DNA of 64,000 bases, taken from NCBI GenBank assembly GCA_032622095.1, contig CP136064.1, positions 262,361,863-262,425,862 on the forward strand, written 5' to 3'. The translations under genes and the position numbers were made by a program. The notes below the pieces were generated by a model that was not told where the DNA came from, made no database searches, and saw only the letters and a list, made by a program, of their open reading frames with translations. Origin of the DNA: Siphonodentalium dalli. Lineage: Eukaryota; Mollusca; Scaphopoda; Gadilida; Siphonodentaliidae. Shown one piece after another: positions 2,757-46,282 of the stretch. The first letter of the stretch is position 1; every line of letters begins with the position of its first letter.

Positions 2757-2829
2757 CTGTGTCTGCGTATATCCACACTCCGCACAAGATCGAATTAGCG
2801 AACAATAATGTAATAATAGTCCCTGCCAT
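2757..2829 (-). CDS. Signal-peptide exon of a divergent paralogue (partial gene)
   Basis: On the minus strand, 24 codons from an ATG at 2829 encode MAGTIITLLFANSILCGVW-like residues ending IYADT, then a CAG|GTAACG donor in phase 1. It aligns with exon 1 at 9342-9405 in start, FAN..ILCGVWIYA core, donor and phase, with three extra codons. About 230 bases of 5' flank are also conserved (2830-3060 against 9110-9341 inverted). The two starts are therefore head to head, 6.5 kb apart. Later exons would lie to the left, on the minus strand. I could not recognise a CTLD or WSC exon in 1-2756, so they may lie outside the window or this may be an orphan exon. The donor is followed by a C-run and a minisatellite. 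Confidence 0.6.
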
Positions 2830-9341: not shown

Positions 9342-9405
9342 ATGGCAGGGGCTCTAGTGTTCGCAAATTTGATTTTGTGTGGGGTATGGATATATGCACA
9401 CGCAG
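9342..9405 (+). CDS. Exon 1: start codon and signal peptide
   Basis: Encodes residues 1-21 and the first base of codon 22. The peptide is Met-Ala-Gly followed by a hydrophobic stretch (ALVFANLILCGVWIYA) and AHA, a typical signal peptide with small residues before the likely cleavage site. The donor is CAG|GTAACG and leaves phase 1. The ATG follows GACAAG. The reading is strongly supported by a diverged inverted copy at 2757-2829 that keeps the same start, hydrophobic core, FAN..ILCGVWIYA motif and donor. The next exon I can place with matching phase is 8 kb downstream, so the link to exon 2 is inferred from phase and from the need of a type I receptor for a signal peptide. Confidence 0.75.
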
Positions 9406-12400: not shown

Positions 12401-15400
12401 ATTACAAGTACCTCAGAAAAATTTCCATCAAAGAGAAACATTTGCTTACGAAAGAAACGAAAGCTGTAGAACTGCCAAAAAGCAATGTATTCCATTGTTA
12501 ATAAGGCAAGAAACCCCAAGCTTTCTTTGGAATGTATATTAGAGATATATGAGACAGCATATTGACCTATCGTTCCGAGTTAGATAGATAGATCATTGTT
12601 TAACAGATGCACAACAAGAAGACAGGTGAGCATAAACACAAATACAAAAGAGCAATACAGAGTGTGACCTTAATATAGTATAGATATAACAAATTATATA
12701 TATATAAATAACAAGAATGCAGCTTGACAGGTCTGCGGAACGACAATATAGTGAATTACCCTCGCTTAGTAATAACTACTAAACAGATAATCATATAGAG
12801 AAGTAGAGGAGAAATATACACATGGATGTGCTCGGTCTGACTAGTCATGTCATCGATTGTCATCAAGGAGCGCACAGGAAAGCAAGCCAAAGCTTGCTTA
12901 TTTGCACTGTGGTCCTTAATGGTAGCCGACCACATGATATGACTGCCACAACACAAGTTTTCATAAGGTCATAATATTAATAATATACAAAGTCAGATTC
13001 CTCAGTACCTAAAAGTTGATCAAATAATTTCTGTTTTATTAAATCATTCCAAGTGGCCAAATTACAGTTATGTTTAATATATTTCACACAATTATTCCAC
13101 AAAGTGATCCATGTGTAGAAAAAGCTATTGTTTCCAAATACTCTAAGGTGAGGCACAGACAATCTTAAAATACCAGACCGGAGATTATATTTGCAATGTG
13201 TGTTTGAAACTTGGAATCCAGCTGTTTTGGAGCTTTCCCATCTGATTTTTTTCATGATAGTCAGTTTTCTTTGGGATACTCTGGATTCAACCGGAAGCCA
13301 TTTAATGGATTTAAACTCTTTATAACCTATATGTGTATATCTGTTGTAGCTCAGAAAAAAACGAATTAATTTATATTGAAAAAATTGTAGTTTATTTTTG
13401 GTATTTGTACTCTAAGAGCTATACCAAATAGAGGATGCATAATCAAGATGGCATTGTATTAATGAGTTTGCAAGTAATTTCTTTGTGAAAGGGGTTAGAA
13501 AGTCTGCCTTTCTATATAGAAATTTGAGTCGAGCAGTTACTTTATTTAGCAATTGTTTGGAAATTTGTCCCCCCAGTGAGTCTTTCATCGAGACAGGCGC
13601 CCAGATATTTCACCTCCTTAACAGACTTAATGTTGATACCATTGCAGCAGATTGTAAGTTCGGGACATATATTAATATTTCGTTTGGATCCAAGTAAGGT
13701 GGATTCTGTTTTGCCTAAATGAAGTGACAATTTACTGTCAACTAGCCAGTGGCTTAATGATGTTAATTCAGTACTCAGCTGATCTGCTGTCACTTTTGAA
13801 TCATTTCCCGAAACTATCAATGCTGAGTCATCTGCACACAGTAGTAGCTTGCAATTTACGGCTACAAGAGCATCATTCACGTACAATACGAACGGAAGAG
13901 GTATCAATATTGACCCTTGAGGACGCTGCACGTGACATTCATAGTACTTGAATGTGTTCCACTTATGTCAGTAATTTGGGTCCTGTCTGACAGATATGAT
14001 GAAAACCATGTTGTCATCACTGCCTAGAGCACTTAATTTATCCAATAAGATAGTATGGCTCACAGTGTCAAATGCCTTCTTGAGGTTAAGAAAGACCACC
14101 CCAGTAAGCGATCCTTTATCAAGGTTCCTTCTAACAGAGTGAGATAAGGGTAGATTCAGTTGAGAAGCCTGCTCTAAACCCCGATTGATGTTCATATAAC
14201 AAAGTATTCTTTGTCAGGTATTCTTCCATTTGTTTATTAACAATTTTCATTAGAATTTTGGAAGCCAGATTTAAAATGGAAACATGTCTATAATTACAGG
14301 ACTTATAAATGGGAACCACCCTTGTAACTTTCAAATCATTTGGAATAATCCCCTGGTGTATTGTCAGATTTATAATATGTGTCAAGGGGGGAAAAATTAC
14401 CGAAGCGCCACCTGGAAGAAACCTTGCTGGTATCAGATCCAAACCAGTAGCCTTGGATGGATCCATATCTATTGTGGGGTTTGAAAATTTGCATAACATA
14501 GAGAAGCTTGAACGTTGGTTCTTAAAATTTGCTCTTCGACTTAAAAAGTCGACTGCTAATGTATTTGTATATGGAGAGACAGGGATATACCTATCGCTGG
14601 GAAAATTATTGGGCTACAATTGTTGCTGGGAAGCAAGACAAATTGTGTTATAAACTGTATTGTATTGTGTAGGATTTATTTTGTTCGGGTTAGATTTCCA
14701 GTCCATGGCTACATAACATACGTGAAATGCTTAACGGAATGGGCATGAGTGAGTACTGGGAGTATCAGAGTATACCTATCATTGATTGGTTTAAGGAAAC
14801 ATGATATTTATATTCAATCGTGGCAATCAGAAATTGAACAGTCGAGTACATTTTACAGATTAATAACACAATAGTTTTTGCGGATGTAAATACTTATCAG
14901 ATACTCAGTAATAAAGTTTTAACCGAATTTTGAAGTATATAACTCGAAACCACGAGTTACCCGTGGACACAGGTTCATGGACTAGCCAGGACATGAACGA
15001 TCTGAACTGTCACCTTTGTGGAAAATCACCTGGCGATGAATATACCTATATATTTTAAATGTCAGGCTTTACATGATGATATAACCGAATTAATTGAAGA
15101 ATATTATTATACCATATAGATATATTGGGAAAGTACTAAAACGATTGTGACCACCTTGGACTTTTATGCTCCTAAAATACCGGAAGTAATTAAGGCGTGA
15201 TGTTATATGCGTATAAGGACTCGAAATCTGAGCGGAAGGGGGTAGTTGCCATGGTTGCTACGTTGTTCTCTTGATGCGTACTTTCTTGCGACGTGTTGGG
15301 CGTAGCCTGTCGTACCCGGGATAATGGTTCAGACCTGTCGGGGCATTAACCAGCGACCAGGCAACATACAACCTTTTTGTCCCGTAGTTTTATTTTATTG

Positions 15401-18400
15401 TCTTATGATTAGGAGAGAATTCGATGAATTAAAATCTTGAAAAAATCTTGAAATCTTAATCTGATTCTATTATTCTCAAAATGAGACCGTTTAATGGGAC
15501 ATGATGTACGATAGTGGTTGTTGCACAGCTAATCCCACCTCTTTTGAGTCAATGCAGCCCGTCTACACGGGCATGTTGACGGTGATTGTTGTATTGGATT
15601 GGATTGGATTGTTTATTTGCACAAATTAAATACATAATACAAAATCAATAATATATCCTGAAAATTTGCACAGGAGCGGCATGGATAAATACAGGCCGTC
15701 TTCCTGTCGCCTCTTATTTACTCTGGTAAAAGCCACGCAAACCCACGTATAGAGGACATACCCTTGTAAATTTCAACCAAATGCACATTAAAGTCAGGTT
15801 AACAATGTTATACTTTGGTAAAAGGCATGTAACCCCACGTAAAATGACATACTCTTGTAAATTCCAATTAAAACCATGGTAAAGTCAGGTTAACAACGAT
15901 ATCCTCTGGCAAAAAGCCATGTACACCCATAGTCTTGTAAATTCCAAGTAAAGGTATGATGTACCCCACTTTACTCTCGTAAATGCTTGTGAAACTGGAC
16001 ATACTAGGCTAAAGCCCATTTCAATCAGAACATAGCGTAGTAAATCAGTTCTTCTGGGAAAAAAACTCCTTCTAAAAACGCGCCTTACATGTTTCTGTTA
16101 TTTGTTTCTTCATCCATGAATACCGGTACATCCGCTATTTGATCTACTCTATAAACAAACGCTCTTTAACAGACGCTTTACTTCAAAAGTAGCCAGTTAC
16201 GTCAAAACCTTGCGCTACAACCATGGTGCGTGTCATATGGGTTGCTTCCAGTCATGTAAGGGTTTTGTTAATAACTGAGTTCTTCATTCCTATTATTATT
16301 GGTACGTGGCAGCTAATAACACATCCTTTGATTTCGAATGAGGTGACGTGATGCCATGCAATAATATACAAAGACTACAAGTATAATGATAGTGTTAATC
16401 TTTGTCCTATTTCTAGACCAAAGTCTGGTGTATAGTCCTTGGATCAGTCCAAACTTACACTACCGATCCTGCAACAAGTATTTCAACCAGGGACAATAAT
16501 TTAGGTGGGTTGGATTTTTGTATATTTAAGTCCAAAATATTCACAATTGCGAGTTAATATAGGCTCCTGCGTAAATCAGAATTTTCCAGAGTATACTGTA
16601 TGTGGGGTACATCATGCCTTTACTTGGAATTTAAAAGAGTATGTCCTTTTCACATGGCTTTTACCAGAATTTATCAATGTTTACCTGACTCTACCACATG
16701 TTACCAGGATAGAGCCTGGTAAACAATGGTTTACCGGGATTTCATCAGAGTGATTGCACAATAGCATGAATGATAACTCTATTTCACAATAGGACATTAT
16801 ACTTAACTGAGGTGTTTTCTGCCTCTTTTTGTTAGACAAATATTATATTTTGTTTGTTAGTCAGTGCAAAACAATTCTACTCGGTGTCATACTCAAAATA
16901 TAACAGAATGGGGCAATATTATTCCTAAAAATAAGCCAGCTAAGTCAACAAGAGTGTACACATTGTGTAATCACATGTGTGATTCAGGTAGCCTCCAATA
17001 TGTTATCTCAAATGTTAGAGCGTACCTCGGTACTACCGTGGTGAATTTACACTAATATCGAGGTAAATTACCCTGGTAGAATTACTCTGGTAAAATTACT
17101 CTAGTAGAACCACCACATACATACTTACGTCCCGGGAAAAAAACTTGGTCAAATACATGAGTGGGAAATATATGGAAAAATCTATACAATGTGTTCGTAT
17201 AATATGATGACCATTCACCAAATGAAGGATGGGTTTTAATTTCCATCTGATTGATGGTTTTCACGTGTTGTGTCACACAATTTACATGTATCACATTTTA
17301 GAAAAACATTTCAGGCAGATGTTGAAATAATTCATTGTGAAATATCATGTTTTGGAAAAATGTTATTCCAGGCCTTAATTTTGTGTAATTTTGAACAAAA
17401 TAAGACATTAACGCATAAAACCGTTCTAAAACGAAAATATTTTAGATATAGAACAGATCTCGCATGAAACAGAAGCTGCATGGATTGTTGCCAACATAAC
17501 ATGCCACGACAAAGGAGGAAGATTAGCCGCCTTTCACACTGAACATGATGTGATGCTTGTGTCGCGGAAACTGGCTGGCATAGACTCCGTGTGGCTCGGA
17601 GGATATAAATACAATACTGGATGGAAATGGCTTCGTGGTGAGTTTTCACAGTGCCATGTGATATACTAGCTTCTGTAGTACGCCTGCATGTGGCCCAATA
17701 TAGCTAGAATTATACTATAATACATCTAATTACTCATACTCTTTAATATTATAAGTCTAATGAACTTAAACTTATTACAATCGCATTGCCACACAGACGT
17801 GATATTGACTACCGCGCTCGTTATTATTTTTGTGTTCTCGCGGGAAGTTACTTGTCATCAACACGTGGTTACAATCATAATGGCTCAGTGGATGGGCGTG
17901 CATTCATTATGCCATATGGTTTTCGATATTAGCTTAATTCGCTTCATTATTGCGTGCGGTCGAAGTTAGATAGTATTGTATGATAATTAAACTGATTACT
18001 CATATATCTAATAAGTCTAATGGACTTAAATTATTAAAATCACAGTGCCTCATATTTTTAATATTATTACGTTTTGATGGAGATATATAGAGTACAATAA
18101 AACGAATGCTCTTTATTAAGCGGGTTGTCTTCGCTGGCCCATACGCGCATATTCTGTACCCACGTACTCACAAACAACATATTATCTGCTATGTCACATA
18201 TGTATGCTAAATTGCTATCGGTTATGCCATCTTATCTGTCGTTGTTTTCAGAACAGAGTAACTTGTACGAGCGAGCCGGCTGCTTTACCGAGAAGAAACT
18301 CACACCAATTCCAGTCTACGATGTGAACAGCATTGGACAATGCATACAACATTGTATTAAGTATAAATACATAGGCATCAAAGTGAGTGCACATACACAC

Positions 18401-21400: not shown

Positions 21401-24400
21401 GCGCATCTATATGGGGTAAATGTTCTCAAAGATTACACATATAGTCCGTCTTTATGTTCAACAGGGTGGACGAGAGAAGTGTGTTTGCCTAGACCCAGAA
21501 AATATTAAACCGATGCTCCGAGGAACACGATGTGAAGTGTCAGGCAACAAAGAATACACAATCGTATTGACTAAACGTTGTGAGTATATGTTTCAACTTT
21601 ACACATATATCAGCTATTATCTACATTTAGCTTCCTTGATTAATATAGGTACATGCAAAAATCCGTGCGTTGCAATTGGACGTTGCACATAGGTCCAACC
21701 GCCGTAAACAGCCAGGCCTAGATGAATACTTGTATAACAGCCGGATCGTGTGAAAAGTAATAATTACGTTTAAGTTCCATTCCGCAAACTTCTCCAACAC
21801 ATTATTGTCGTTCATATATGATTTCATAGAAAGTTGGCTTGTGCCTCAAATGTGTTTCATTAAATAATATTTTGCTGAATTTGTGTGTTTGTTTTATATT
21901 TTACCGAACCCATTTTTTATGAAAAGATTATTAATGGTTATGCAAGATTCACTGCTGCATATATACGTAATGTTAGTATAATCAAATTATTATGTAAGTT
22001 CTATAAGGACAATGCCTCTCAAATAAGGCTGTTGAATATTGCTGAAGCAACAGTAAGCTTGTGATATTTTAATATTATATTCATAAAAGCAGTCATAAGA
22101 GAATCAGCGCCGTGTAAGCACCGTCATTGAAACAGGAAAAAAGAAAATAGATAATATAAAAGTTATTTGCTCTATGGATATTTGGAGGACGTTGAATGAG
22201 ACACTGTGTGACATAATTGCACTGGAATTCAGGAGTTTAAGACATGACTCGAACACATATGCAGGCCGGATCGCTGGTGCAGTTGGGTCGCTTCATGTGA
22301 CTGAATTGTGGTCTATGCGAAGTGAGAGTAGGACTAAATCACGTAAACGATAACTTTTTCGCCCACATATGAAGCAATCATATTTAGCAGTGCTTCCACA
22401 CTATATGATATATATACATGGGTGAAGTGCAATATATACATGGATACATATAAATGATGACGGGGTCACAACAAAATCACGCACACTCCTTTCGCACGCC
22501 GGTGGTGATTTTCCATTCTCGTTAGGGGCCATGTGAGCAGGTCAGGCACATCCCGAATTCCACTATTATAGTGGTATATGCCCATTACCGTTTTGTTATT
22601 TTGATAAAAGAGGGATAATCCAAAATCATATTTCACACAAATATTATTCAAAATCAGTGTCGCACTAATTCAGTATCATACATATATTTTGTCCAGGAGA
22701 ATGATTAATCGTGATGGCACACGAGAACCAACTCAATTAGCACGCACTTAATTGGAATGTTGTTATGAAGGAGCGATTAAGTGATCATGTTATTGTCATG
22801 TAGATAGACATACATTAGTAATATTATAATATTATTGAATAACAAAGCTGGCGCAAAAGATTGCACAACGAATTTTGTCGGAAGACCGTTCATTTCGATA
22901 TTGATAAGAGTGACATTTGGCTGTGCAGTGTGTGCACTGGTATGCGCCGTATTCTATTCCCGACGCAAATAAAGGAAATATGAATATGTTATAGCCCTAT
23001 ACCACTATAATAGTGGAATACCACTATAATAGTGGAATTCAGGATGTGCCTGACCTGGTGAGTAGGTCTGAGAAGAATTCCTTGTATGCACACGGACCCT
23101 AATTGCGAATTTAAGCCTACACTAGGTATTTCATTAGAAAAACAACACCGTCGACTCGTTATTTGTATTATATCGGGGGTTTCGCATAATATGGGCCCAT
23201 TCTATATGGAATCTATCAACCGGGTACACCAACAGTCGCTTTGAGCAGATGTTTCCGAGGCTCAAGTCGAACGTCGTAAACCAGACCGACATATTACATA
23301 TATATGCAATATAGAGCAAAGGTGAGATTAGCTGGCTATTGCTTGTTTAATGTTAAAAAGTTTGTTGAAAGTCATCATGTGTCATATTGATGAGTGATAA
23401 AAACTCTTTACATGCATACCTGAATTTCAACTCTGTGATAAATGCCTTCATACATAAATTATTCTGGGTGGAACTGTGTCCTGTATATTTATTGTTTTAG
23501 AATCATAATTAAAAGTTTGCACCACGAAAAGAGGACCTAGTTCTAGAATGGGTTGTTTTATTCGGCGTAGGGATACTTATATACCTTATAACTATCTCAT
23601 ATGCTCAGATATACCAGCGATTCTAGTTCGAAATAACGTGAGTATTATAGGCGTCGTCCTCTACTACTCTGAATTTAAAATCACACAGTACGCAGATTAC
23701 ACAACTCTTCTTTTAGATGGTTCTGAATCTTGCCTCAGGGAGGATTATTCAACGAAGGATGTCCTTGCTCAGTTGTCGGGATTGCGTGCCGAACCAGAGA
23801 AATGTCAGGCGTCCTGGATTGGCACCCTTGCATCGTGTAAAAAGACTATATGCCCAAAGCTGAATTTGTCATTTTCTTCATATGTTACTCTTCAATGAAT
23901 TCGCTTCAACACATGTTTGGAAAAAATGATGCAAAATTATGAATCAAAGTTAGCAGAAATCTAAACAGTAGTACCTGGAAACACATATTGTTGACTCCTC
24001 TTGGTAATAATCATTAGAACACTTATTCTTCCAAATTGATCCACTTTCTTATCACTTGCCAAAACCATGAAACAGGTGGATTAAAAATGGCAGTTATAGA
24101 TCTGTTCAACATGTCGATGAAAATAACATGGATACGACGATTATACTAAAATATGCAAAATGGTTATTACTGGGTGAATTTCGCTTGACATTGACAACCT
24201 CTTTTTAACTGATGAGCCTGAATACATAAACCCATACATTATACCATATAAACTCAATGCAGTCTTTCACTCATTCTAATCTACAGACGGCGGAAATGAC
24301 CCTTATCAAGGCTGTTACATAATCGACGATGCCGACTTTACTATAGCTGACAATTCCCTGCAGAAATGCCAGATGATGTGTGGGTCGTATCCCTTCATCG

Positions 24401-24885
24401 GTCTTCAGGTAGGTCACTTACCTTTTTAAATGTACCCTATAACTGCGAATGTAGTAATAGTGACCACCCCTCGTTTCGTGTGTTGTATTCCGGATGTTTT
24501 AGAGTCGGGCGCAGGATAAACCGGACTCGGACTGCACTATGCTCCCGTTTCCAAATCAACTTTACAATTCAATCATTTTAGCTAATTTTGACGCAATACA
24601 AGCTTGAGATTTTGCCATGGGTTGGTGTCCGCCATTCGTGTACATGTTCGTATGTCCGTACGTCAGTCAACACTTTCATTCGGCACGCCCTGCAGGCCAC
24701 AGTCCTTATCCGATCATCACCAAACTTCATGCTGATCTTCGGGGCAACGTCTACATGGGAGCCATAAAATTTGTCCGAAATTCCAATCCATCGGCTTACC
24801 ATGCAGCGCACATATATTGGAGAAATTTCTTAAGAATTGACAGGCATGTTTAGGTTCACATCTAGATATATTCGAAAGCACACCC

Positions 24886-24955
<70 letters not shown>

Positions 24956-33900: not shown

Positions 33901-36900
33901 CAGCCAGACATACATCGTTTGCTCAACTGGGAAAATATAACCCAAGTAGAATCACATAAACACCTCGACCAGAACATACAGAGTGACATTAACTGGAACA
34001 AACATATCAATGAGTTATCAAAGAATATATATATGGCCGCCTTGCATATTTAAGAAAATTTAAATATTCTTTAAATAGAACAAACCCTAGACACAATTTA
34101 GACACATCGAGCGTACTGCCCCGTATGGATTATGCTGACGGGGTAGGTCGCCTCGCTATATAAGAGAATGCATTGGCCTAACAATTTTGTACAATTTTAA
34201 TAATTTTTTCTTGTATTCTTTAACAATTTTATAATTTCACCCATACAGAGCCCCAGACAAACACGAGCAGACGACACTATTCTCTATGCTTCTATATATG
34301 TGTGGGGCTCCCTGCAGGGTAATGGATGTTTTTTATTTTATGTCCTAAAAATTGTAAGAAACATTTATTTAAAAACAATGATAAAAAATTGTTAGGCCAA
34401 TGCATTCTGTTATATATTCGAGGCGACTCACGACTGGATTTGATATGACGGGTCACATATATACCTAGGTAATGATATTGCGGGTCAAACTATTACACGT
34501 CTCAGTCGATCCGTCCCTAAAATCCTCATAGAATTGCGGCTGCAGACTTTACCAAACAGAAGGGAATCCCATAGAATGAATACCATGTAGAAAATAACCA
34601 ATAATGCGACCCCTAAATACCTTCACAATCTCTTACCCTCCCGCCCCGAATCTGATGCTAGATATGATTTTAGAGATATAACAAGTTTTCCTCAATATTC
34701 GTTCAAAAGAACTGAGCATTTTTAACACACATTTTATCAAATACAACTAAGGAATGGAACACCATGTCAAAGAAAATCAAAGAATCATCATCCCTTCGTA
34801 TATTTAAAACTAAATACCTAGCGACCGATCCAGTCCTTGTGCCACCATTATATTTCAATTTCGGACATCGCGCGATAAACATACTTCATTGTAAACTTCG
34901 AAATTATTATAGCGATTTAAACGCTGACAAGTTTAGTAACTTCGTATCGGACAACCCAATTTGTCGTTGTTGTCACCCGACATAAGAAGCAAATAATTAT
35001 TTGTGTGTCTCCATTTTATACAGATCAACGATGTTTGTTGTTTCACCAACTTGCTACCCTGTGTGTAAAATATTTAAAAACTTATAGAAAACTTATAGAA
35101 CATATATAGAGAAACACCGAGAAACTCCTCCTCGGTGATACTACGCTGAATAATACACAAAACAGGAACATATTTAGGGCTGTCCAATTATACATAAGCT
35201 CGGCATTGCGGTTTGAAATTTATGTGTATACCTATAATCATCATAATAATGTTCATACCTCTGCCGCAAAATTCATGTTTTATTCCCAATACACGCACAA
35301 GCGAAAATGCACCTGAGCCGCAAACCCACGAGATGAACACCCCCCAATCAGTTGAAATAACCACCGTTATGGTTCTACACAAGACTATCTCATATATGGA
35401 TATAAGTGAAACGATGTTATACATATGAATGACTATGATTGTGTGTTCTCTGTATTTTATGTTCGTTATGTGCAAAGCAAATATGTGGGGAGAAATGTCC
35501 TCAAAATGTGTCTCAAAACCGTTGTTTGTAATGCAATAAAATATGTTTACACTAACATCTTCCAATTGCTATTTACTCCGAGGTGAGCCATACGACGTAG
35601 ATCCACTGTTTGTACAAACATTGTAATAACTATAAGTACCAGTGACATTTTACACCAACAGTAGAACCGTATACCCTGATAGGGCTTAAAGCTGAACTAA
35701 TCACTGTTTATCAAAAATCGTTTCTACGCATTTTGCATCCAACATTTCAGTGTGTGATGTGGCCATGGCCGCATGGGTTAACCAATTTGGTTGTGCTTTG
35801 GTATGTTGATAGCACAGCTTGGGTGATAGGATACTTCAATGCGAATACACCAGTATTAATGTTGCCAAGAAAGACAAAACGTAGTATATGCCCCAACACT
35901 CAGTTTAGAAATTGGGCAATACTAACTATGAAGAATAACTATTTTCTGAATCCAAGAATGGCTGTCGCTTGGAGGAAATTAATGGGTTTTATGTGTTCTT
36001 ATGGGAGGAAGTTAATGCATTTTATGTGTTCTGTCATGCTTTGATTACTATTTATGATAAGAGTGGTAGATAGTAATTCCGATAATAATGTATTATAACG
36101 TATATATATAAATCAGATGCTAACTACGACTGTATACCATTGTTCCCACAACCGCGTCTGCTATTGCTATGTGTTATTGTCATTAGCCCAATTTTACTGC
36201 ACAGGACTACCGGTGACATTGCAAGTAACAGAACAAAAGTCCATTGACGTTGAAGCAAACTGTCTTATACTGCGCAGAAATTCAACTGGTGGGTTTGGTA
36301 TTCATGACGCAGCATGCACTGAACATCACACCTTTTTATGCGAACAGCACACTCAAGGTGAGCCCACAATCGATGTCCATACACTTATTATCATTGCTCG
36401 CAAAGTTTTGAAAAATGTGATTGAACACGATTTCGCTTCCACATGAATTATCTTCCACATGATTTATCGCTCACATGATTTATCTTCCACGCATGAGCTC
36501 TATGCACATGTAACATACTGAAAAACAACTCTTCTCTAGGACACTACTCGTTCCAAGTGGCACCACCAGGGAACTTAAAGTACTCTAACCTTAACCTGCT
36601 ACATGCGTGTATCTAAGGGAACCACTCATCCAGCATGCAAACTTTCATCCATATAGCACTACAACACTACAAGTAGTGTGATCACTCCTCAGTCGTAATC
36701 GCCATTGTCCACGTCATGTTATTCCTGTGTGTATGGGGGTAAACAGTTTACTATAGCATACTGAACAATTGCCTACTCATAACTGAATCACTGATGTATG
36801 ATGAAGCCTTATGATGGTGTAGTATTTTAAACTGTTATAATGTTCATTCGATATGGAGTTCTGTATACGTATGTTCCGTCTCAAGATTTATTTTATGTTT

Positions 36901-42900: not shown

Positions 42901-45900
42901 TTCGATTATATTCGGTCTCCCCCATAGGTAAGATGGATATGTTTAGTATGTACTATCACGTCCCTTGAATAAGATAAGGGATAAGGGTGCATTACTCTAC
43001 ACCTATGGTCGACTCGCATATGTAAGAGAATGCATTGGCACAGGGTACCCGCGTATCAACTCCAATTGCACAAAATGCAAGATAGAGATAGTCTCCAAAA
43101 TAATAGATTGGCAGTACATTACAGATTAAATTTAAACTTAAAAACACTCAGAACACACGTTGGTTCCTCAACAAAAACAAAGTGCTCAAACGTGGTCTAA
43201 CCCATATTATCTTTACAGGCCCGAGTACAAGTGGGACAAATAGTTCTAAGGACGATAGCGCGGACACTACTGTCATTATCCTCGGTGTCGTGGTTGGCTT
43301 CCTATTGGCAGCAGCTATTTGTTCAGCGTGCATGTAAGTACCCGACTAATCACATCGTAAAACAAAGGAATTTATCGCAACTAGTCACCAATGCATATAC
43401 GGTAGAAATCTGGTGACTTCGCCAATCAAACGGTCATTTTAAATCATTCAGACAGCCTTATATAGGGCGGGCTCAAGTCGTTTTACAGTGTTTGATGTTT
43501 CGTCACCTTTCTGTGTCAGGTCAGTAATCGGATACGAGGTCTAAGACTAAAACATTTCAATTACCAAAGTGGGTCCAAATGTCTCTTATATTCAAAAGTG
43601 AACAAGCAACAACTTGTGTTTCCACATTTATTTGTTTCTGATCAACACAATGTTTTTATGTATCGGCTTTTCGTCTATTATATCTACAGTTGTTGATAAA
43701 TGTAGGTATATATGTTATCTTAACCCTTTCTAGACTAAACACACATTGGTGAGTGGTTATAATTTTGGAAATGTCCTAATAAAAAATTTAACAAACGACC
43801 ACAGGTAGTTTTTTTAACTTATTATCTGAACATCTCAATAAACAGGACTAAGTCTGCAACTGTATTATTTACGTCTGTTTATATCACCCGAACATCCCCC
43901 AAATGAATAATAAAACCGTTACAATGTATACCTTTATAACTGAATGGGATAATCCATTTATTATAGAAAGTGTTAATTGTTCACGAGTATCGACATTATT
44001 ATGCGACTTAAATACCATTCTGACAAAAAAGTTGCACTGTGTTGGTTTGGAATTCGCTTTGGTACGTACCATCTTCTGTATGAATGGTGTCATTTTTGTG
44101 GTTCCATTCAACCCAATTGTTATACAACTTGACACAACAACTGCAATACAAATGCTATGGGAAGTATTTTTTCTATTCATTATTACACACCCATTCATTT
44201 CCCCTACAAGCAAACAGTCATTTATATGACTATCTGCTGTTAACAGGTCGTGCATATCATGCATACACACACACCCCTCATTTCCCCTTACACGAAACTT
44301 GTAATATATATGACTATCTGCTGTTATCAGGACATGCATATATATTGCTAGTTATAATAGTTAAATATGGACATTGTCGTCTTGTGATATTGATATAAGA
44401 GTGATAATCCAGAACCATATTTAAACAAATTTAATAGTAGGATCTGTCTATCCGTCGGTCTGTCTGACGCAATTTTTCTCGACTGCTGGTCCGATTGTAA
44501 ACAAATTTGGTGTGGTGACTCGGTGTACCATGGCGGAGGTTATAACGTTATTAGTTTTTCAAATTTTTGACTTAAAAAAACTTAAATAAATTAAATTTTA
44601 GTTTTTTTTAATAAGCTTACTATGGGCCTATTGCAGAATAAACTAGGTCCAATATGAACATATGTGAACATTTAGGACCAACATAAACCTTTTTACACGA
44701 TGATATGTTGCATCACCATATTTACGCACTTTTTATATATATTTTAAGTGTGGCCCGCGCATCCAACGGAATAACGGTTATAAGTCCATTGTGGGCATAT
44801 TCCAGTATCAAATAAGTCCAATATGAACCAATACCAATATGTAATGGTAATACAACCATCACTCAGACATACAGGTGAGAGTATTAAAAAAATCACTCAG
44901 ACATACAGGTGAGAGTATTAAAACCATCACTCAGCAATACAGGTGATAGTGATGTTGTTCAGACATACAGGTAATAGGAATGAAACCATCACTCAAACAT
45001 ACAGGTGATAGCGCTAAAACCATCACTCAGACATATGGGTGATAGTAATAAAACCATCACTCAGGCATACGGGGGATATTTAAGTTGGTCAGGTGACAGT
45101 GGTGTTGGTTTAAGCATGAATTTTTAAAAGCAGACTCCACCCATGGTACTATGAGATGCACCATTTATTTTGGGCACAGTCAAATGGTGCTAGGCATAAT
45201 AAATTTGTTTTCAGTGTACATAGTTTGCACGGAAGTTCAAATATATTGTTAATCATATATTTGCGCTGAATAAAAAATGATATATGCTGAGGTACATATA
45301 CGGAATGAATGTGAGAAAGACTTCGTATATAAATGAACACTGATGACGATCATATTCGAATGACATGATGTATTTTAAATTGTGTACATCGAAACCGCGG
45401 CTCTTCGCATACTTTGTTTGTGTAATTGTGCGATCCAGACGGTAATGTATTTGAATTATATAGCATAGAAAGAACACGAGTGTGAACACGAGATGTGTTT
45501 TGATATTATTACATCCATATTGATACACAGTGTGAACACGAGATGTGTTTTGATATTAATACATCCTTAATGACACAGTGTGGAAACGAGATGTGTTTTT
45601 ATATTAATACATTCTTATTGACACACAGTGTGAAGACGAGATGTGTTTTGATATTTGGATATACCACGTGCAACCAGCTCAATTGAATAGAGACTGTGCA
45701 TGCGTGCTCAGCCGGAAGTTTAGTTATCGCATTCACCGTACATCCATGATCGCATATAACTAATTTTTTATGTACATTTTGTCTGATTTCAGGTATATCC
45801 TTTGGCAACGTCGGAGTCAAATGCAACACAGCGAGGCTGTTGACGAAAGCCACTATTATTCATCGGTGGAGGAACACCATATAAAGCTTCCACAGCCCTC

Positions 45901-46282
45901 GGATACATCTACAGCGGACGCTGGTAGCAGCTATATAAATCTGCTACAGCTCCCGGATACATCTACAGCGGACGCTGGTAGTAGCTACATAAATCTGCCA
46001 CAGCCCTCGGATACATATACAGCGGACGCTGATAGCAGTTATATAAATCTGCCGCAACTCCCGGATACATCTACAGCGTACGCTGATAGCAGCTATATAA
46101 ATCAGCCTCAGCTCCCGGATACATCTACAGCGGACGCTGATAGCAGCTATATAAATCAGCCGCAGCTCCCGGATACATCTACAGTGGACGCTGATAGATA
46201 CACAAGTCTATTGCGGCGTTCCATATCAAATGAAATGATCTACACGAGTCTAGTGCCGTCGGGATCACAAACAACTGACTGA
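9342..46282 (+). CDS. Predicted 11-exon receptor: signal peptide, split CTLD with two WSC domains, second CTLD, TM, Tyr-repeat tail
   Basis: Gene-level entry. The exons are 9342-9405, 17446-17637, 18252-18382, 21465-21579, 24287-24408, 30029-30164, 30682-30851, 31571-31751, 36205-36357, 43219-43333 and 45793-46282. They sum to 1869 nt, giving 622 residues plus stop. All ten junctions have AG acceptors and GT donors, and the phases are 1,1,0,1,0,1,0,1,1,2. Every incoming phase matches the outgoing one, which is unlikely by chance. The product should be a type I plasma-membrane receptor with lectin-like and WSC (putative carbohydrate-binding) ectodomains and a phosphotyrosine-type tail. CTLD and WSC are known families; ligand and signalling role are inference. 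Weakest points: the 8-kb first intron (an unrecognised exon could lie in it) and the exact exon 2 acceptor. No transcript evidence is available. Confidence 0.82.
9406..10310. other. Intron 1 start: short repeats, no exon found
   Basis: 9431-9455 is one unit of the 2.2-2.7 kb minisatellite type. 9500-9660 carries several AACCGTTTAA / GACCGTT copies in both orientations. The remainder shows nothing recognisable. Confidence 0.4.
10312..10806. mobile_element. MITE-like element with GCGATATT/GCGCGC repeats
   Basis: Left end AGAAGTGGTATTTTAAGGCG and right end GCGCTTAATATACCACTTAT are imperfect inverted repeats. The inside has many copies of GCGATATTGAGCGC, GCGCAAAATATTGC and similar. A related end occurs at 26570-26640 (ATATACCACTTCTTCTTACT). 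No ORF. Class unassigned. Confidence 0.55.
11390..11880. repeat. Dispersed repeat with internal duplication, related to 29270-29560
   Basis: A block containing TGTCACAATTTAGTGGAAAA, CAACGATTAAGCCGGTT and a GGAACCGA..TCAGAC segment occurs at 11586-11700 and again at 11737-11850. The preceding TTGACATC.AAGC and GTGTCAGTA sequences recur at 29300-29345. Confidence 0.55.
12070..15613 (+). mobile_element. LINE A (+): RT fragment, interrupted, with zinc knuckle and ATTGG tail
   Basis: 12070-12577 carries an RT fragment with LYADDTVLSS and later a LNGQDVEIV..YKYL block. The reading stops at LTYRSE near 12576. It resumes after the nested LINE B at about 14480 with ENLHNIEKLERWFLKFAL and a VYGETG motif, a usual C-terminal pattern in such LINEs. 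A zinc knuckle-like CHLC..SPGDEY lies near 15020-15050. The sequence ends with an ATTGG microsatellite at 15594-15613, typical of a CR1/L2/RTE-type 3' tail. Many stops; dead. It lies in intron 1 of the receptor. Confidence 0.75.
12578..14480 (-). mobile_element. LINE B (-): CR1/L2-like RT, nested inside LINE A
   Basis: Minus-strand RT in several frames. 14131-14499 shows DPSKATGLD and SILNLASKI, then HQSGFRAGFSTESTL. 13968-14195 has NLKKAFDTVSH. 13542-13931 has the catalytic LCADDS and KYLGACLD. 12977-13255 is the C-terminal region. The 3' end is near 12578 with a GATA-type microsatellite (TAGATAGATAGATC on the + strand). It is 5'-truncated at about 14480. Frameshifts and stops show it is inactive. 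Confidence 0.85.
15720..16750. repeat. Tandem repeat with inverted counterpart
   Basis: 15720-15990 has about three direct units with CTCTGGTAAAAGCCA, CCCACGTA, GACATACCCTTGTAAATT and AAAGTCAGGTTAAC. 16575-16745 carries the same unit inverted (AGAGTATGTCC, CATGGCTTTTACCAGA, TTTACCTGACT). The ORF at 16505-16753 is therefore repeat, not an exon. 17060-17110 has more CTCTGGTAAAATTA copies. Confidence 0.7.
16861..17000 (+). other. Weak exon candidate in intron 1
   Basis: After a T-rich acceptor (TTTGTTTGTTAG) an open stretch encodes NNST, then RCHTQNITEWG, and VYTLCNHMCDS before a CAG|GTAGCC donor. It has four cysteines and two sequons and looks extracellular. It enters in phase 0 and leaves in phase 1, so it cannot follow exon 1 directly. 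I left it out of the model. Confidence 0.2.
17446..17637 (+). CDS. Exon 2: first half of C-type lectin-like domain 1
   Basis: Encodes residues 23-85 (codon 22 is split). Visible CTLD marks: HET-x3-W helix start (W34), ANITC with Cys41, GGRLA (residues 45-49), VWLGG (W71; the family WIGL motif) and TGWKW (W81, W83). N38 is in an NIT glycosylation sequon. The acceptor chosen is ATTTTAG at 17445; an alternative AG at 17472 would remove nine in-frame codons. The donor CGTG|GTGAGT leaves phase 1. The second half of this fold is not in the next exon: two WSC domains intervene, and the completing half is exon 7. The first Cys-containing strand of long-form CTLDs is absent, as it also is in CTLD2. 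Confidence 0.85.
17638..18251. other. Intron 2, no exon found
   Basis: I searched here for the missing second half of CTLD1. No frame gives the W/C pattern; it is found in exon 7. Confidence 0.5.
18252..18382 (+). CDS. Exon 3: first half of WSC domain 1
   Basis: Encodes residues 87-129, entered in phase 1 (split codon 86 reads Glu) and left in phase 0 at ATCAAA|GTGAGT. The acceptor TTGTTTTCAG is strong. The peptide has the WSC opening: AGCF (Cys96), then CIQHC (Cys116, Cys120), then YKYIGIK, matching the family pattern GCY...C..xC......Y.GL. It pairs with exon 4 to make one WSC domain with the same internal splice position as WSC2, which supports both models. WSC domains occur in cell-surface sensors and are thought to bind glycans; ligand unknown. 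Confidence 0.85.
18780..19400. repeat. Repeat cluster, two direct copies and one inverted
   Basis: Sequences around TGGACCATTTCTGAGGACGG, TTCGGCAAGTTTG and GTTGGCCTGTCCCA recur. The 19260-19390 copy is inverted relative to 18780-18930 and 19100-19250. Overlapping ORFs on the minus strand are products of the repeat. Confidence 0.5.
19401..20090. other. No gene seen (intron 3)
   Basis: AT-rich, no recognised repeat or exon. Confidence 0.5.
20095..21340. repeat. Direct duplication, 20095-20560 and 21005-21340
   Basis: Shared landmarks in order: a TATGACATC or TGTTACATC site followed by CTGAAG.TCATGAGAGG, TTATTCTTCATT.TAAT, GTTATA.CAT, TTA.GACAC.AAT, and ATAAGCTATTTTGGTGAT. Copies are well diverged. 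No coding potential. Confidence 0.55.
21465..21579 (+). CDS. Exon 4: second half of WSC domain 1, cysteine-poor
   Basis: Encodes residues 130-167, entered in phase 0 after TTCAACAG and left in phase 1 at CGTT|GTGAGT. It carries CVC (Cys135, Cys137), matching the family CYC/CFC, and Cys152. The usual later C-x3-C and C-G-G elements, present in WSC2, are missing. WSC1 thus has six cysteines and lacks two, which suggests a relaxed or altered fold. The end (YTIVLTKR) matches WSC2's ending LAIYRRN, so the domain is complete in length. Confidence 0.85.
21830..22520. other. No gene seen (intron 4)
   Basis: No domain-bearing ORF and no clear repeat apart from ATATATACATGG twice near 22410-22440. Confidence 0.5.
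22530..23065. repeat. Inverted repeat pair around 0.4 kb
   Basis: 22532-22582 and 23000-23060 are inverted copies containing ACCACTATAATAGTGG, GAATTC and GGATGTGCCTGACCTG. The right arm has the palindromic ACCACTATAATAGTGG twice. A MITE is likely; target duplication not found. Confidence 0.5.
23540..24260 (+). mobile_element. L1/Tx1-like LINE fragment in intron 4
   Basis: 23548-23898 reads a GC-F-x-R-R-x-D opening (decayed GCRQGDP), AILVRNN, then QYADYTTLLLDGS where the catalytic YADD has become YADY, then SGLRAEPEKCQ..WIGT. Further decay includes LLTPLG-like LLVIII. The last recognisable part (DEPEYINPY) ends near 24260, close to the exon 5 acceptor at 24286. It is the same family as 6640-8312. 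Confidence 0.8.
24287..24408 (+). CDS. Exon 5: first half of WSC domain 2
   Basis: Encodes residues 169-208; split codon 168 reads Tyr. The acceptor is CTAATCTACAG and the donor CTTCAG|GTAGGT, phase 0. The peptide opens YQGCY (Cys177), continues with a D/A-rich loop, then KCQMMC (Cys195, Cys199) and FIGLQ, a close match to the WSC consensus first half. A decayed L1-like LINE fragment ends within about 50 bases of the acceptor, so part of the acceptor's upstream sequence may be LINE-derived. Confidence 0.9.
24590..25080. repeat. Dispersed repeat with ATCACCAAACTTCAT core, two tandem copies, and an AT microsatellite
   Basis: 24650-24800 has GGCACGCCCTGCAGGCCACA, TCCGATCATCACCAAACTTC and ACATGGGAGCCA. 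24955-25080 is a second copy (TCTGATCGTAACCAAACTAC, ACATCTAGATGGC). Between them, 24890-24950 is an (AT)n run. An inverted copy is at 62990-63270. Such units are common in invertebrate genomes; the ORFs over them are not genes. Confidence 0.7.
25081..26560. other. No gene seen (intron 5)
   Basis: Two diverged copies of an ATGGTGTCAAATCGGTCAG-type segment occur near 26043 and 26222. Nothing else recognised. Confidence 0.5.
26570..26830. repeat. Dispersed repeats related to 10312-10806 and 3856-4000
   Basis: 26570-26640 resembles the right end of the 10.3-10.8 kb MITE-like element. 26648-26830 matches 3870-4000 in the same orientation. The same junction of two families may mark a larger shared element. 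Confidence 0.5.
26950..27185 (+). repeat. Minisatellite, ~28-bp units
   Basis: About 7-8 units of GGAGTACCTATATTTAGGTT followed by TTCT or similar, recurring every 27-29 bases. Confidence 0.85.
27560..28800. repeat. Compound array of ~250-310-bp blocks carrying palindromic TTTGCGATAAATCGCAAA motifs
   Basis: A spacer block (TATAAATCAGACATC, TTAAACAGGTCTGGGTGA, CGATCTATAATAG, ending GCACTAATGGGCTT) recurs near 27590, 27835, 28150, 28270 and 28615. Between the spacers are runs of a ~20-base near-palindrome, GCGATAAATCGCAAA or its relatives, in both senses. ORFs across it are artefacts. Confidence 0.75.
29270..29560. repeat. Dispersed repeat related to 11390-11720
   Basis: Shared order: TTGTTGACATC.AAGC, TTATTCTCGTGTCAGTA, CCAACAGCACTG, then AATATCAACATCGACCGG near 29435. 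Diverged copy. Confidence 0.45.
30029..30164 (+). CDS. Exon 6: second half of WSC domain 2
   Basis: Encodes residues 209-253, entered in phase 0 after CTACATGCAG and left in phase 1 at AAACA|GTAAGT. It contains GVSCYCY (Cys212, Cys214), HACNIPC (Cys228, Cys232) and SCGG (Cys240), then LAIYRRN. With exon 5 it gives the full eight-cysteine WSC pattern. The donor is also the first unit boundary of a 61-bp minisatellite that repeats donor-like sites downstream. Confidence 0.9.
30162..30432 (+). repeat. 61-bp minisatellite starting at the exon 6 donor
   Basis: The motif AACAGTA (exon 6 end plus donor) recurs at 30161, 30222, 30283, 30344 and, as AATAGTA, at 30405: exactly 61 bases each time. The unit includes TAGATCGTTAATATTGGGCA and a GTGAGATTCATGTTTGTGGG block. 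Two of the four downstream copies keep AGTAAGT. Confidence 0.95.
30682..30851 (+). CDS. Exon 7: second half of C-type lectin-like domain 1
   Basis: Encodes residues 255-310; split codon 254 reads Ile after WSC2, or would read Val if exon 2 were spliced directly here. Features: GWGQGQPL (the family W..GQP/GEP region), NCACV (Cys271, Cys273), INW (W285), SAC (Cys290) and LALC (Cys298). This is the completing half of the fold begun in exon 2. Cys41 would pair with Cys298, and Cys271 or Cys273 with Cys290. The EPN/WND calcium-sugar residues are not kept (QPL, WKT). The acceptor TTGTCTTTACAG is strong; the donor CCACAG|GTTAAT is weaker, phase 0. Confidence 0.85.
30900..31570. other. Intron 7, no further exon
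   Basis: Open stretches (for example 31057-31269) show no domain or splice-compatible pattern. Confidence 0.45.
31571..31751 (+). CDS. Exon 8: first half of C-type lectin-like domain 2
   Basis: Encodes residues 311-370, phase 0 in, phase 1 out at AATG|GTGAGA. It shows NWTSSIRVC (W321, Cys328), the KGSGWIL strand, CYWIGL (Cys355, WIGL at 357-360) and YIW. N320 (NWT) and N363 (NYS) are glycosylation sequons. Like CTLD1 it lacks the extra N-terminal cysteine strand. The internal splice point is equivalent to the end of exon 2, showing that the two CTLDs share intron placement. Confidence 0.85.
31752..32480. other. Intron 8 start
   Basis: 32170-32275 holds an imperfect inverted repeat (AACTGTTCTGAGCAGCGTAC against GTACGCTACTCAGAAATGTT). 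No exon seen. Confidence 0.45.
32530..35180 (+). mobile_element. LINE C (+): CR1/Jockey-like RT, interrupted by a MITE
   Basis: Pieces in order: 32900-33115 (NNLQYNLTPADSTKYFWKMV, then INRTKSGSLPLL, the linker after the endonuclease); 33343-33666 (VIPI..K.NYRPI region and a GVPKG end, the usual GVPQGS); 33736-34053 (MYADHNCL, the catalytic YADD changed to YADH, then WLVKFN..NTKSMTF); 34764-34985 (C-terminal part ending in CRCCHP). 34147-34427 is a MITE insertion. Stops and frameshifts throughout. It fills much of intron 8. Confidence 0.85.
34147..34427. mobile_element. MITE with GTCGCCTCG ends, inserted into LINE C
   Basis: A 281-bp element. Its ends GTCGCCTCG and CGAGGCGAC are perfect inverted repeats, followed inward by TATATAAGAGAATGCATTGG and its inverted partner. 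The same GAGAATGCATTGG module occurs in the 3393-3851 piggyBac-like MITE and at 42.4-43.05 kb. It separates the LINE reading MDYADGV from the rest. Confidence 0.75.
36205..36357 (+). CDS. Exon 9: second half of C-type lectin-like domain 2
   Basis: Encodes residues 372-421; split codon 371 reads Gly. It contains EANCLIL (Cys390), HDAACTEHHTFLCE (Cys408, Cys416), the normal closing strands of a CTLD. N396 (NST) is a sequon. The EPN and WND motifs of calcium-dependent sugar binders are absent, so binding, if any, is likely non-canonical. The acceptor is TTTTACTGCACAG and the donor CAAG|GTGAGC, phase 1. Intron 8 before it holds a LINE with a MITE inside it. Confidence 0.85.
36420..37230. other. 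Intron 9 start, no exon found
   Basis: 36440-36495 has three to four ~20-bp units of CACATGATTTATCTTCCA. The rest shows no gene. Confidence 0.45.
37520..37860 (-). mobile_element. LINE fragment (CR1/L2-like C-terminus)
   Basis: The minus-strand ORF 37846-37520 reads VTAGDRAFSVASPFLWNKLP, then SLKMFTSKYKTHLFQ, the standard C-terminal end of CR1/L2-type RTs. It is 5'-truncated at about 37860; the 3'UTR extends left into 37.2-37.5 kb. Confidence 0.85.
38364..38466. repeat. Hairpin-forming inverted repeat
   Basis: Arms of about 30 bases (AGAACCGCCAC...CTCGT against ACGAG.AGGTGGCGGTTCT) with a ~40-base loop. It sits directly outside the left arm of the 38.46-41.1 kb element. Confidence 0.75.
38464..41105. 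mobile_element. Element with ~440-bp terminal inverted repeats (foldback-like)
   Basis: 38464-38905 and 40655-41105 are inverted copies of each other. Outer ends share AAACCGTACAAACACATAAT; inner parts share GAATACACCCGAGCCAAGGT. Both arms, read in the same sense, encode a similar peptide with CEYTRAKV, FVANITVFP, NRCC.CV and TFEEG.FARKLFS. I do not recognise it. The right arm has a ~20-bp insertion that shifts its frame. The core (38.9-40.65 kb) has no convincing gene. The conserved peptide could be a gene fragment carried by the arms. Confidence 0.65.
41822..42065. repeat. Diverged repeat, inverted partner at 57240-57475
   Basis: Shared blocks when 57.2-57.5 kb is inverted: GGCCGG.TTCGTCAT, GTTTAAACCTC.GAGTTTAA, CTGGTTTAA, GTCCAG.CAAAC.GGGT, GCAATCAAACTAC and AGGCCGATA.AATGGTTAT. 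It lies in intron 9. Confidence 0.65.
42383..43045. mobile_element. MITE (GAGAATGCATTGG family) split by a 489-bp insertion
   Basis: 42383-42511 and 43001-43045 together read as one MITE of the type at 3393-3851, across GCGACCTATGGTCGACTCGC. The insertion 42512-43000 separates them and ACCTATG stands on both sides (42505-42511, 43001-43007), a 7-bp target duplication. The inserted sequence has no visible inverted termini and no long ORF. Confidence 0.75.
43219..43333 (+). CDS. Exon 10: stalk and transmembrane helix
   Basis: Encodes residues 423-459; split codons give Gly422 and Met460. First a short Ser/Thr/Asp-rich stalk (PSTSGTNSSKDDSADTT, N429 sequon), then VIILGVVVGFLLAAAICSAC, continued by MYILW in exon 11, for about 23-25 hydrophobic residues, followed by QRR as stop-transfer. 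Acceptor ATCTTTACAG, donor CAT|GTAAGT, phase 2. This is a textbook type I membrane anchor and joins the lectin exons to the tail exon in frame. Confidence 0.88.
43334..44400. other. Intron 10 first part
   Basis: 44222-44345 has a ~70-bp direct duplication (TATGACTATCTGCTGTTA.CAGG). The ORFs at 43884-44398 overlap in several frames and show no domain. 44440-44560 resembles the CGGTCTGTCTGACG...CCGATTGTAAACAAATTTGG class of dispersed repeat. Confidence 0.45.
44857..45080 (+). repeat. Minisatellite, ~36-bp units, 6-7 copies
   Basis: Units of AACCATCACTCAGACATACA followed by GGTGA.AGTATTAA or similar. Confidence 0.9.
45481..45660 (+). repeat. Minisatellite, 48-50-bp units, 4 copies
   Basis: Units start at 45481, 45531, 45579 and 45629 with TGTGAACACGAGATGTGTTT, then TGATATTAATACATCC. 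It lies 130 bases upstream of the exon 11 acceptor. Confidence 0.9.
45793..46282 (+). CDS. Exon 11: cytoplasmic tail with tandem YIN repeats and an ITAM-like end
   Basis: Encodes residues 461-622 and stop TGA at 46280-46282; acceptor CTGATTTCAG. After YILWQRRS comes SHYYSSV, then six 18-residue repeats (residues 487-594). Five contain SSYIN at Tyr507, 525, 543, 561 and 579. Three read YINL, which fits the ITIM form S-x-Y-x-x-L; two read YINQ. Tyr-x-Asn is the known Grb2 SH2 ligand. The end is YTSLLRRSISNEMIYTSL (Tyr596, Tyr610), two YxxL motifs ten residues apart, within the 6-12 spacing of ITAMs. The tail is rich in Pro, Asp and Thr between motifs and has no enzyme domain. Signalling by phosphotyrosine is inferred from motifs only. 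Confidence 0.88.
45872..46195 (+). repeat. 54-bp in-frame coding minisatellite, 6 units
   Basis: Units are 45872-45925, 45926-45979, 45980-46033, 46034-46087, 46088-46141 and 46142-46195, each exactly 54 bases (18 codons), so copy changes keep frame. The consensus peptide is SSYINLPQLPDTSTADAD. The first unit is degenerate: EHHIK stands where SSYIN should, with CAT (His) for TAT (Tyr). Units 4 and 5 are nearly identical, which suggests recent duplication. Confidence 0.95.

Follow-up and report, generated by a model that had tools for sequence, protein, structure and literature searches.

The window analysed here, a stretch of 64,000 nucleotides from the scaphopod Siphonodentalium dalli, contains a gene that we label P1 and the first exon of a divergent neighbour, P3. 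P1 was rebuilt as 11 exons at 9342-46282 on the forward strand, which join in phase into exactly 622 residues followed by a stop codon (Table 1). All ten introns are bounded by GT-AG, and the 11-exon, 622-residue model without phase conflict of the original prediction was recovered identically. In order, the exons encode a signal peptide, the first half of a CTLD (CTLD1a), two WSC modules of two exons each (WSC1 and WSC2), the second half of the same CTLD (CTLD1b), a second CTLD over two exons (CTLD2), a stalk with the transmembrane (TM) helix, and the tail.

The start of the gene is supported by its neighbour. Around P1 exon 1, 311 bp that reach back beyond the ATG match DNA upstream of P3 at 72%, and the P3 signal-peptide exon (MAGTIITLLFANSILCGVWIYADT) uses the same donor; judged by this homology, the first exon of P1 is confirmed. 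Because the first exon of P3 lies within the window on the opposite strand, P1 and P3 are arranged head to head, with first exons ~6.5 kb apart. Scanned for bacterial promoters, a test that is not meaningful for an animal, the region between the two genes gave no more than shuffles did. As there is no RNA evidence, the P1 junctions rest on conservation and not on transcripts. We also considered whether a further CTLD exon lies N-terminally, after exon 1 and before exon 2; the phase-compatible candidates had no CTLD features and were rejected, but such an exon is not excluded, as the region upstream of P2 was covered only in part.

Repeats were observed in several introns. A 61-bp unit present 4.5 times (window 30159-30434) starts in the last bases of exon 6 and carries several copies of that exon's donor, AAACAGTAAGT, on into the intron, and a 24-bp tandem repeat of six copies lies at 27035-27180, between exons 5 and 6. 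Window introns also hold reverse-transcriptase-like fragments, for example at 12977-14613 (-) and 32876-34053 (+). Similar frames occur upstream of P2, where they were the only protein-level matches seen in 8.9 kb.

Table 1. Exons and other features of P1 in the window, and positions of related genes in the genome (C, contig).
Feature	Position	Strand	Support
Exon 1: signal peptide MAGALVFANLILCGVWIYAHA, phase 1 end	9342-9405	+	Homologous exon in P3, same donor
Exon 2: CTLD1 first half (one cysteine, WLGG, WxW)	17446-17637	+	Present in 9/9 genes
Exon 3: WSC1 first half	18252-18382	+	Present in 9/9 genes
Exon 4: WSC1 second half, divergent, without CGG motif	21465-21579	+	Present in 9/9 genes
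Exon 5: WSC2 first half	24287-24408	+	Present in 9/9 genes
Exon 6: WSC2 second half (CNIPC...CGG)	30029-30164	+	Present in 9/9 genes
Exon 7: CTLD1 second half (WGQGQP, four cysteines)	30682-30851	+	Present in 9/9 genes; with exon 2 a continuous Lectin_C match
Exon 8: CTLD2 first half (CTLD2a)	31571-31751	+	Present in 9/9 genes
Exon 9: CTLD2 second half (CTLD2b)	36205-36357	+	Present in 8/9 genes, not found in P11
Exon 10: stalk and transmembrane helix, helix without charged residue	43219-43333	+	Modelled in P1-P4; matches in P5 and P8
Exon 11: class A cytoplasmic tail including stop	45793-46282	+	Tail comparison
54-bp tandem repeat inside exon 11: 18-residue units with YINL/YINQ, five YxN	45879-46197	+	
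Signal-peptide exon of divergent neighbour P3 (tail class B)	2757-2829	-	Homology to P1 exon 1
P2, P3, P4, beside P1	C4:262.3-262.6 Mb		Genome search
P5, P6	C4:273.3-273.5 Mb		Genome search
P7, P8	C4:297.2 Mb		Genome search
P11	C9:210.2 Mb		Genome search
Partial family copies	C4:254.9-255.5 Mb		Genome search
Single-exon family matches	C3		Genome search

The family was sought in the source genome (2.23 Gb in 9 contigs). The P1 model gave at least 73 matches, with 71 of 444 candidates scored, and a second ectodomain query gave 84. They resolve into at least nine genes, labelled P1-P8 and P11, since eight loci besides P1 have the identical exon order. Feature order was monotone along the chromosome in all nine genes, with 8 to 11 features per gene, and the ectodomain exons contained no internal stops. 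The 66 paralog exons were modelled with splice sites sought in phase-compatible positions only; a phase-compatible AG and GT were found, lying exactly at the aligned border in 46 of the 66; in the rest one end was displaced, by 3 to 27 bases. The P8 CTLD2a acceptor is pyrimidine-poor, with a better one 9 bases upstream by eye, and for WSC2a of P5 and P8 a repeat search found no acceptor and the first modelled version was used. Ectodomain dN/dS was 0.41-0.57 in ten pairs, a range from which the family genes appear to be under selection on the protein.

Since the same exon order recurs in eight further loci, the doubt attached to a one-gene model is settled as far as sequence can settle it. That exons of neighbouring genes had been stitched together by eye or by chance is very improbable: the introns are long and filled with retroelement fragments and exon 4 is only weakly WSC-like, but eight independent loci repeat the order with matching borders, which refutes a chimera for exons 2-8 and leaves doubt about undetected extra exons and isoforms. 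The nine collinear genes likewise bear out the proposed layout, in which CTLD and WSC domains form the ectodomain, the membrane is crossed once and the tail repeats its tyrosine motifs.

Candidate signal peptides of P2 and P4 (MKIRRK...), ~0.8 kb upstream of CTLD1a, are similar to each other; as part of the DNA matches a second place upstream of P2, this candidate may be a repeat. The CTLD1a, WSC1a and WSC1b exons of P11 (C9:210226939-210248011) occur twice, about 11 kb apart, and a tandem repeat before the WSC2b exon of P8 (C4:297175351-297176009) multiplies the acceptor region. WSC exons in general are very numerous genome-wide: of 300 candidates, 150 were scored and yielded at least 150 matches at E 0.001. 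They form mirrored tandem arrays at C2:210.67-210.77 Mb (-) and C2:213.49-213.54 Mb (+).

Pfam scanning of the 622-residue model found only WSC (39.8 bits, cut-off 27.8) and Lectin_C (32.4 bits, cut-off 22.6) above cut-off, each in two stretches, and no PKD, REJ, GPS or PLAT domain. Both predicted WSC domains are present, but the first is divergent: WSC1 of P1 has six cysteines and alone scores 23.5 bits, below the cut-off of 27.8, and WSC2 alone reaches 38.2 bits. The whole ectodomain exceeded the WSC cut-off in all five paralogs scanned, which did not include P4, P6 and P8, and a comparison of WSC2 with PDB sequences yielded no relative at E 10. With the WSC modules removed, CTLD1 gave one continuous Lectin_C match in P1 (25.0 bits), P5 (40.3) and P11 (27.1), all above 22.6, and CTLD2 of P1 scored 24.2 bits. 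The unjoined ectodomain of P11, which lacks CTLD2b, had no Lectin_C match at E 0.1. Over its full length, the rejoined CTLD1 can be aligned with CTLDs of the mannose receptor, LY75 and relatives, one mannose-receptor CTLD giving 29.4 bits.

The WSC pair lies between the WxW and the YxxW..GxP of CTLD1, at the start of the CTLD long loop, so that it sits where many CTLDs bind ligand. CTLD1a has one cysteine, and its usual CTLD partner is found in exon 7, past the WSC exons. CTLD1a, WSC1, WSC2 and CTLD1b all have phase-1 borders, as would be expected if the WSC pair had been shuffled in. The ectodomain is an unusual solution, in which exons with phase-1 ends graft a domain pair into a CTLD at its long loop. 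Of 24 ectodomain cysteine columns, 20 are kept in all nine genes, three in 8/8 (P11 not scored) and one in 8/9; because CTLD1 and CTLD2 have five cysteines each, a bond between the odd ones is predicted by inference.

Calcium-dependent sugar binding by C-type lectins uses an EPN or QPD motif plus WND. In an alignment read by eye, CTLD1 of all nine genes has QPL, EPK, EPR, QPR or NPK in place of EPN/QPD and lacks WND, and CTLD2 has no WND in any of the eight genes that carry it in full. CTLD1 thus differs from mannose-receptor-type CTLDs both in the WSC pair between WxW and YxxW and in the absence of EPN/QPD and WND. As no gene combines EPN/QPD with WND, Ca2+-dependent sugar binding is doubtful: the CTLD and WSC modules of the original prediction hold, but carbohydrate recognition by them is weakened.

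Pooled over eight close pairs, pN/pS was 0.53 for CTLD1, 0.89 (0.59-1.39) for WSC1, 0.35 (0.23-0.52) for WSC2 and 0.46 for CTLD2. WSC1 failed to exceed WSC2 in 2 of 2000 resamples and is, on this measure, the fastest-evolving part of the ectodomain; positive selection is not demonstrated, because its interval includes 1. Since all module borders are in phase 1, any module could be skipped in frame, and the WSC exons might be alternative cassettes, giving isoforms with zero, one or two WSC modules and an intact CTLD as the main form. The 1/1 phases at each module border and the direct joining of the CTLD1 halves into a good Lectin_C match would suit such cassettes, but the WSC exons are in order and open in all nine genes and WSC2 is the most constrained domain, which shows that they are used, though not that they are always included; we regard the cassette model as rather unlikely.

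The genes differ at their cytoplasmic ends. P3 and P4 have no YIN tail downstream and instead carry a different tail exon after the TM exon. Genome searches with each tail found seven places for the P1-like tail A and seven for the other, tail B. One of the seven tail B copies (C4:254949130-254949610) has in-frame stops and is apparently a broken family member, and tail B was read in the six open tails, those of P3, P4, P7, P8, P11 and a copy labelled 254998. All six contain TEYDxL and [DE][DE]Y[EG]TV, 31-33 residues apart, and 10-12 tyrosines in all, and none contains YxN. The pattern TxYxx[VIL] separates the classes completely (6/6 tail B, 0/7 tail A copies).

Tail A is marked by YxN motifs, of which there are five in P1, five in P2, thirteen in a copy on C1 and two in P5; P6 has one in its distal part plus a YINW near the membrane, and two pieces at 255 Mb have two and ten. 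Four A tails count as intact (P1, P2, C1 and P5), since the P6 tail can be read only by combining two frames and those at 255 Mb are interrupted or in pieces. Among 36 repeat units, the asparagine is present in all 36 and the tyrosine and isoleucine in 34 each, compared with fractions of 0.50-0.97 elsewhere in the unit. The YINx units are in part recent duplicates with few synonymous changes, so this conservation is only modest evidence of use. YxxM is present in the A tails of P2, P5 and P6.

At its end, the P1 tail reads YTSL-x10-YTSL. A pattern allowing spacers of 6-12 residues found YxxL-x10-YxxL in five of the seven A copies (P1, P2, C1, P5 and 255b); a pair is visible by eye in P6, and there is none in fragment 255a. 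An ITAM is defined as YxxL/I-x6-8-YxxL/I, and with a spacer of 10, tail A does not meet the strict definition. The proposed tail of tandem YIN motifs with an ITAM-like end is thus borne out in its five YxN, whereas its YxxL pair is spaced more widely than in a strict ITAM. The strict ITIM pattern [SIVL]xYxx[ILV] is found in only one of six B tails, as STYTYI in 254998, and covers neither EEYxTV nor TEYDxL; it fits tail A more than tail B (SSYINL, IIYTSL/IIYRSL). For this reason, the assignment of A as activating and B as inhibitory stays open. PD-1, for comparison, has VDYGEL and TEYATI. No charged residue lies inside the TM helix of P1-P4, the P3 lysine being only at the inner end.

That the two tails are alternative last exons of one gene is rejected, as whole-genome searches with each tail placed no tail B at P1 or P2, nor any tail A at P3 and P4; an earlier alternative use, since lost, is not excluded. 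The C1 copy (C1:81531871-81533028) has 13 YINQ in an open tail-A exon that codes for 388 residues, and no TM-like exon or ectodomain match was found within 10 kb upstream of it. Long frames of an 18-residue repeat, YIYIPQPDDECSIITSC, at C3:75.08-75.10 Mb are weakly like tail A in periodicity and probably unrelated.

Tail class does not follow ectodomain relationship. In a tree of 1197 ectodomain columns, P5 (tail A) grouped with P8 (tail B), P6 (A) with P7 (B), and P1 and P2 (A) with P3 and P4 (B), each group with support of 100/100. A single clade of A genes, a test that was framed after the similarities and tails had been seen, was rejected (p-AU 1.1e-53, at a cost of 696 log units). The same holds for DNA: P5 and P8 are 75-88% alike in eight exon regions including parts of introns, and P6 and P7 are 72-92% alike, yet the tails of P5 and P8, and of P6 and P7, have no DNA match. 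Conversely, tails of one class do match, at 83-86% between P5 and P6 (A) and at 75% between P7 and P8 (B). Similarity between P5 and P8 spans the TM exon and stops about 150 bp past it, with no further match (E 1e-5) from there as far as the tails. P1 is ~78-81% like P3 and P4 around CTLD2b and 70-72% around the TM exon, where P1-P2 and P3-P4 are 85-86% alike.

Exchange of tails, or gene conversion of ectodomains, would explain from these comparisons how like ectodomains came to carry unlike tails. Mis-assembly at P5-P8 is a remote rival that is not fully excluded. We show here the gene structure, the family, its two tail classes and their reassortment. Two tail classes on interchangeable ectodomains are the main point, and one that the original prediction had missed.

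Paired receptors of vertebrates include KIR/LILR/PIR, the Xenopus FcR-like XFL and C-type lectin-like receptors of the NK complex. They occur in clusters, combine similar ectodomains with different signalling ends and undergo rapid lineage-specific diversification (for part of this, PMC2413239). The scaphopod family resembles them in its clustered genes with similar ectodomains and different signalling ends, and so meets the paired-receptor criterion of similar ectodomains, alternative signalling ends and clustering. It differs from them in a CTLD-WSC ectodomain in place of Ig domains or a single CTLD and, compared with those that use adaptors, in a TM helix without charged residue and in a tail A that itself bears a YxN array and a YxxL pair. 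That the two classes signal with opposite signs is, moreover, not demonstrated for the scaphopod family.

YINQ is the GRB2 site of EGFR (Y1068), and LAT has repeated YxN. Tail A is like these GRB2-docking proteins in its YINQ and repeated YxN, and unlike them in carrying an 18-residue array of 5 to 13 copies (in the intact array-bearing A tails) on a receptor that is neither an RTK nor an adaptor. Tail B has a likeness to amphioxus BbLcLRR, a WSC-bearing LRR surface receptor of an invertebrate whose tyrosine motifs are phosphorylated by Lck and which is reported to be inhibitory through DDYATV and HDYSEV, as far as the accessible text goes (PMC8211107). EEYxTV of tail B resembles both motifs. 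The BbLcLRR ectodomain is an LRR with WSC and without CTLD, and the accessible text of that report mentions no second tail class.

No precedent for a CTLD-WSC ectodomain was found in the open-licence PMC literature, within which the original statement that no family with such a domain order had been described still stands. The relevant reports of WSC with C-type lectin domains concern the polycystin-1 and sea-urchin REJ family, which contains both, to judge from the part of the paper at hand (PMC1934368). Those proteins cross the membrane up to 11 times and carry PKD, REJ, GPS and PLAT domains, whereas P1 has a single helix and its WSC pair inside a CTLD. Nothing in the open-licence PMC literature linked WSC plus C-type lectin to an ITAM or to a mollusc. 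A figure legend in a sponge paper, itself only partly available, names WSC among other domains beside CTLD genes, and a CTLD-WSC protein there is not excluded.

Our best reading, held with slightly more conviction than doubt, is a paired-receptor-like family in which two tails occur on interchangeable ectodomains, opposite signalling being an inference. The P1-type product would be a single-pass surface receptor whose CTLD1-WSC head and CTLD2 bind an undetermined ligand, upon which the receptor may become tyrosine-phosphorylated. The YxN repeats of tail A, which we take to be GRB2-type SH2 sites, could then recruit GRB2 in clusters, perhaps with a Syk-type kinase, leading to activation. Tail B, with EEYxTV and TEYDxL ~32 residues apart in an ITIM/ITSM-tandem-like arrangement, would be predicted to recruit SH2 phosphatases and inhibit. 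Cells carrying both tail classes might balance the two signals, similar ectodomains with unlike tails could read one ligand set in opposite ways, and recombination or gene conversion may keep the ectodomains alike. Ligand, phosphorylation, partners, signal sign and cell type are all inferred here. As a genomic cluster may carry a single tail class (A at 273 Mb, B at 297 Mb), pairing in expression is unknown.

A further step is to see the family as an invertebrate paired activating and inhibitory system, independent of that of vertebrates, with heads shared between A and B genes; this is possible but tentative, and we would not yet assert it. The head would be the CTLD loop with a fast WSC1 and a conserved WSC2, sharing would come about by gene conversion or by exchange of tails, the A tail would be multivalent and GRB2/ITAM-like and the B tail ITIM/ITSM-like, and the A and B genes would be partly paired head to head, a picture to which the same tentativeness applies.

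Both tails might instead be activating or scaffold-type, with GRB2, PI3K and Syk on A and other SH2 adaptors on B, so that tail diversity would tune output and not give it opposite signs. The strict ITIM is missing in five of six B tails, which have other tyrosines (10-12 in all), and YxxM occurs in the A tails of P2, P5 and P6; set against this, TEYDxL and [DE][DE]Y[EG]TV, present in 6/6, resemble the ITIMs described for BbLcLRR in the consulted portion of that paper (PMC8211107). We consider two activating or scaffold-type tails unlikely, without discarding them. Similarly unlikely, in our estimate, is that these are adhesion, developmental or gamete-recognition receptors and not immune ones, using GRB2 for growth or adhesion signalling. 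There is no immune evidence for the family, and WSC and CTLD co-occur in PKD1/REJ proteins, including sea-urchin sperm receptors, in the excerpted source (PMC1934368). Lineage-specific tandem expansion, a fast ectodomain and tail reassortment are, however, more usual for receptors of non-self, although gamete receptors can have them too.

Returning to a paired-receptor-like family, the concept as such is not new among invertebrates. Paired receptors are said to have occurred in them (PMC2413239), and tunicates have ITAM and ITIM proteins (PMC5465252), both according to partial texts. Because invertebrate receptor pairing is already in print, at least in the part of PMC2413239 that could be consulted, the novelty lies in the family and its architecture, together with the evidence for tail reassortment. 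If the two tails do signal oppositely, the rule that a single recognition head serves two signs would have emerged from other domains in animals that are not vertebrates. If true, the recurrent invention of paired receptors by immune systems would become comparatively testable.
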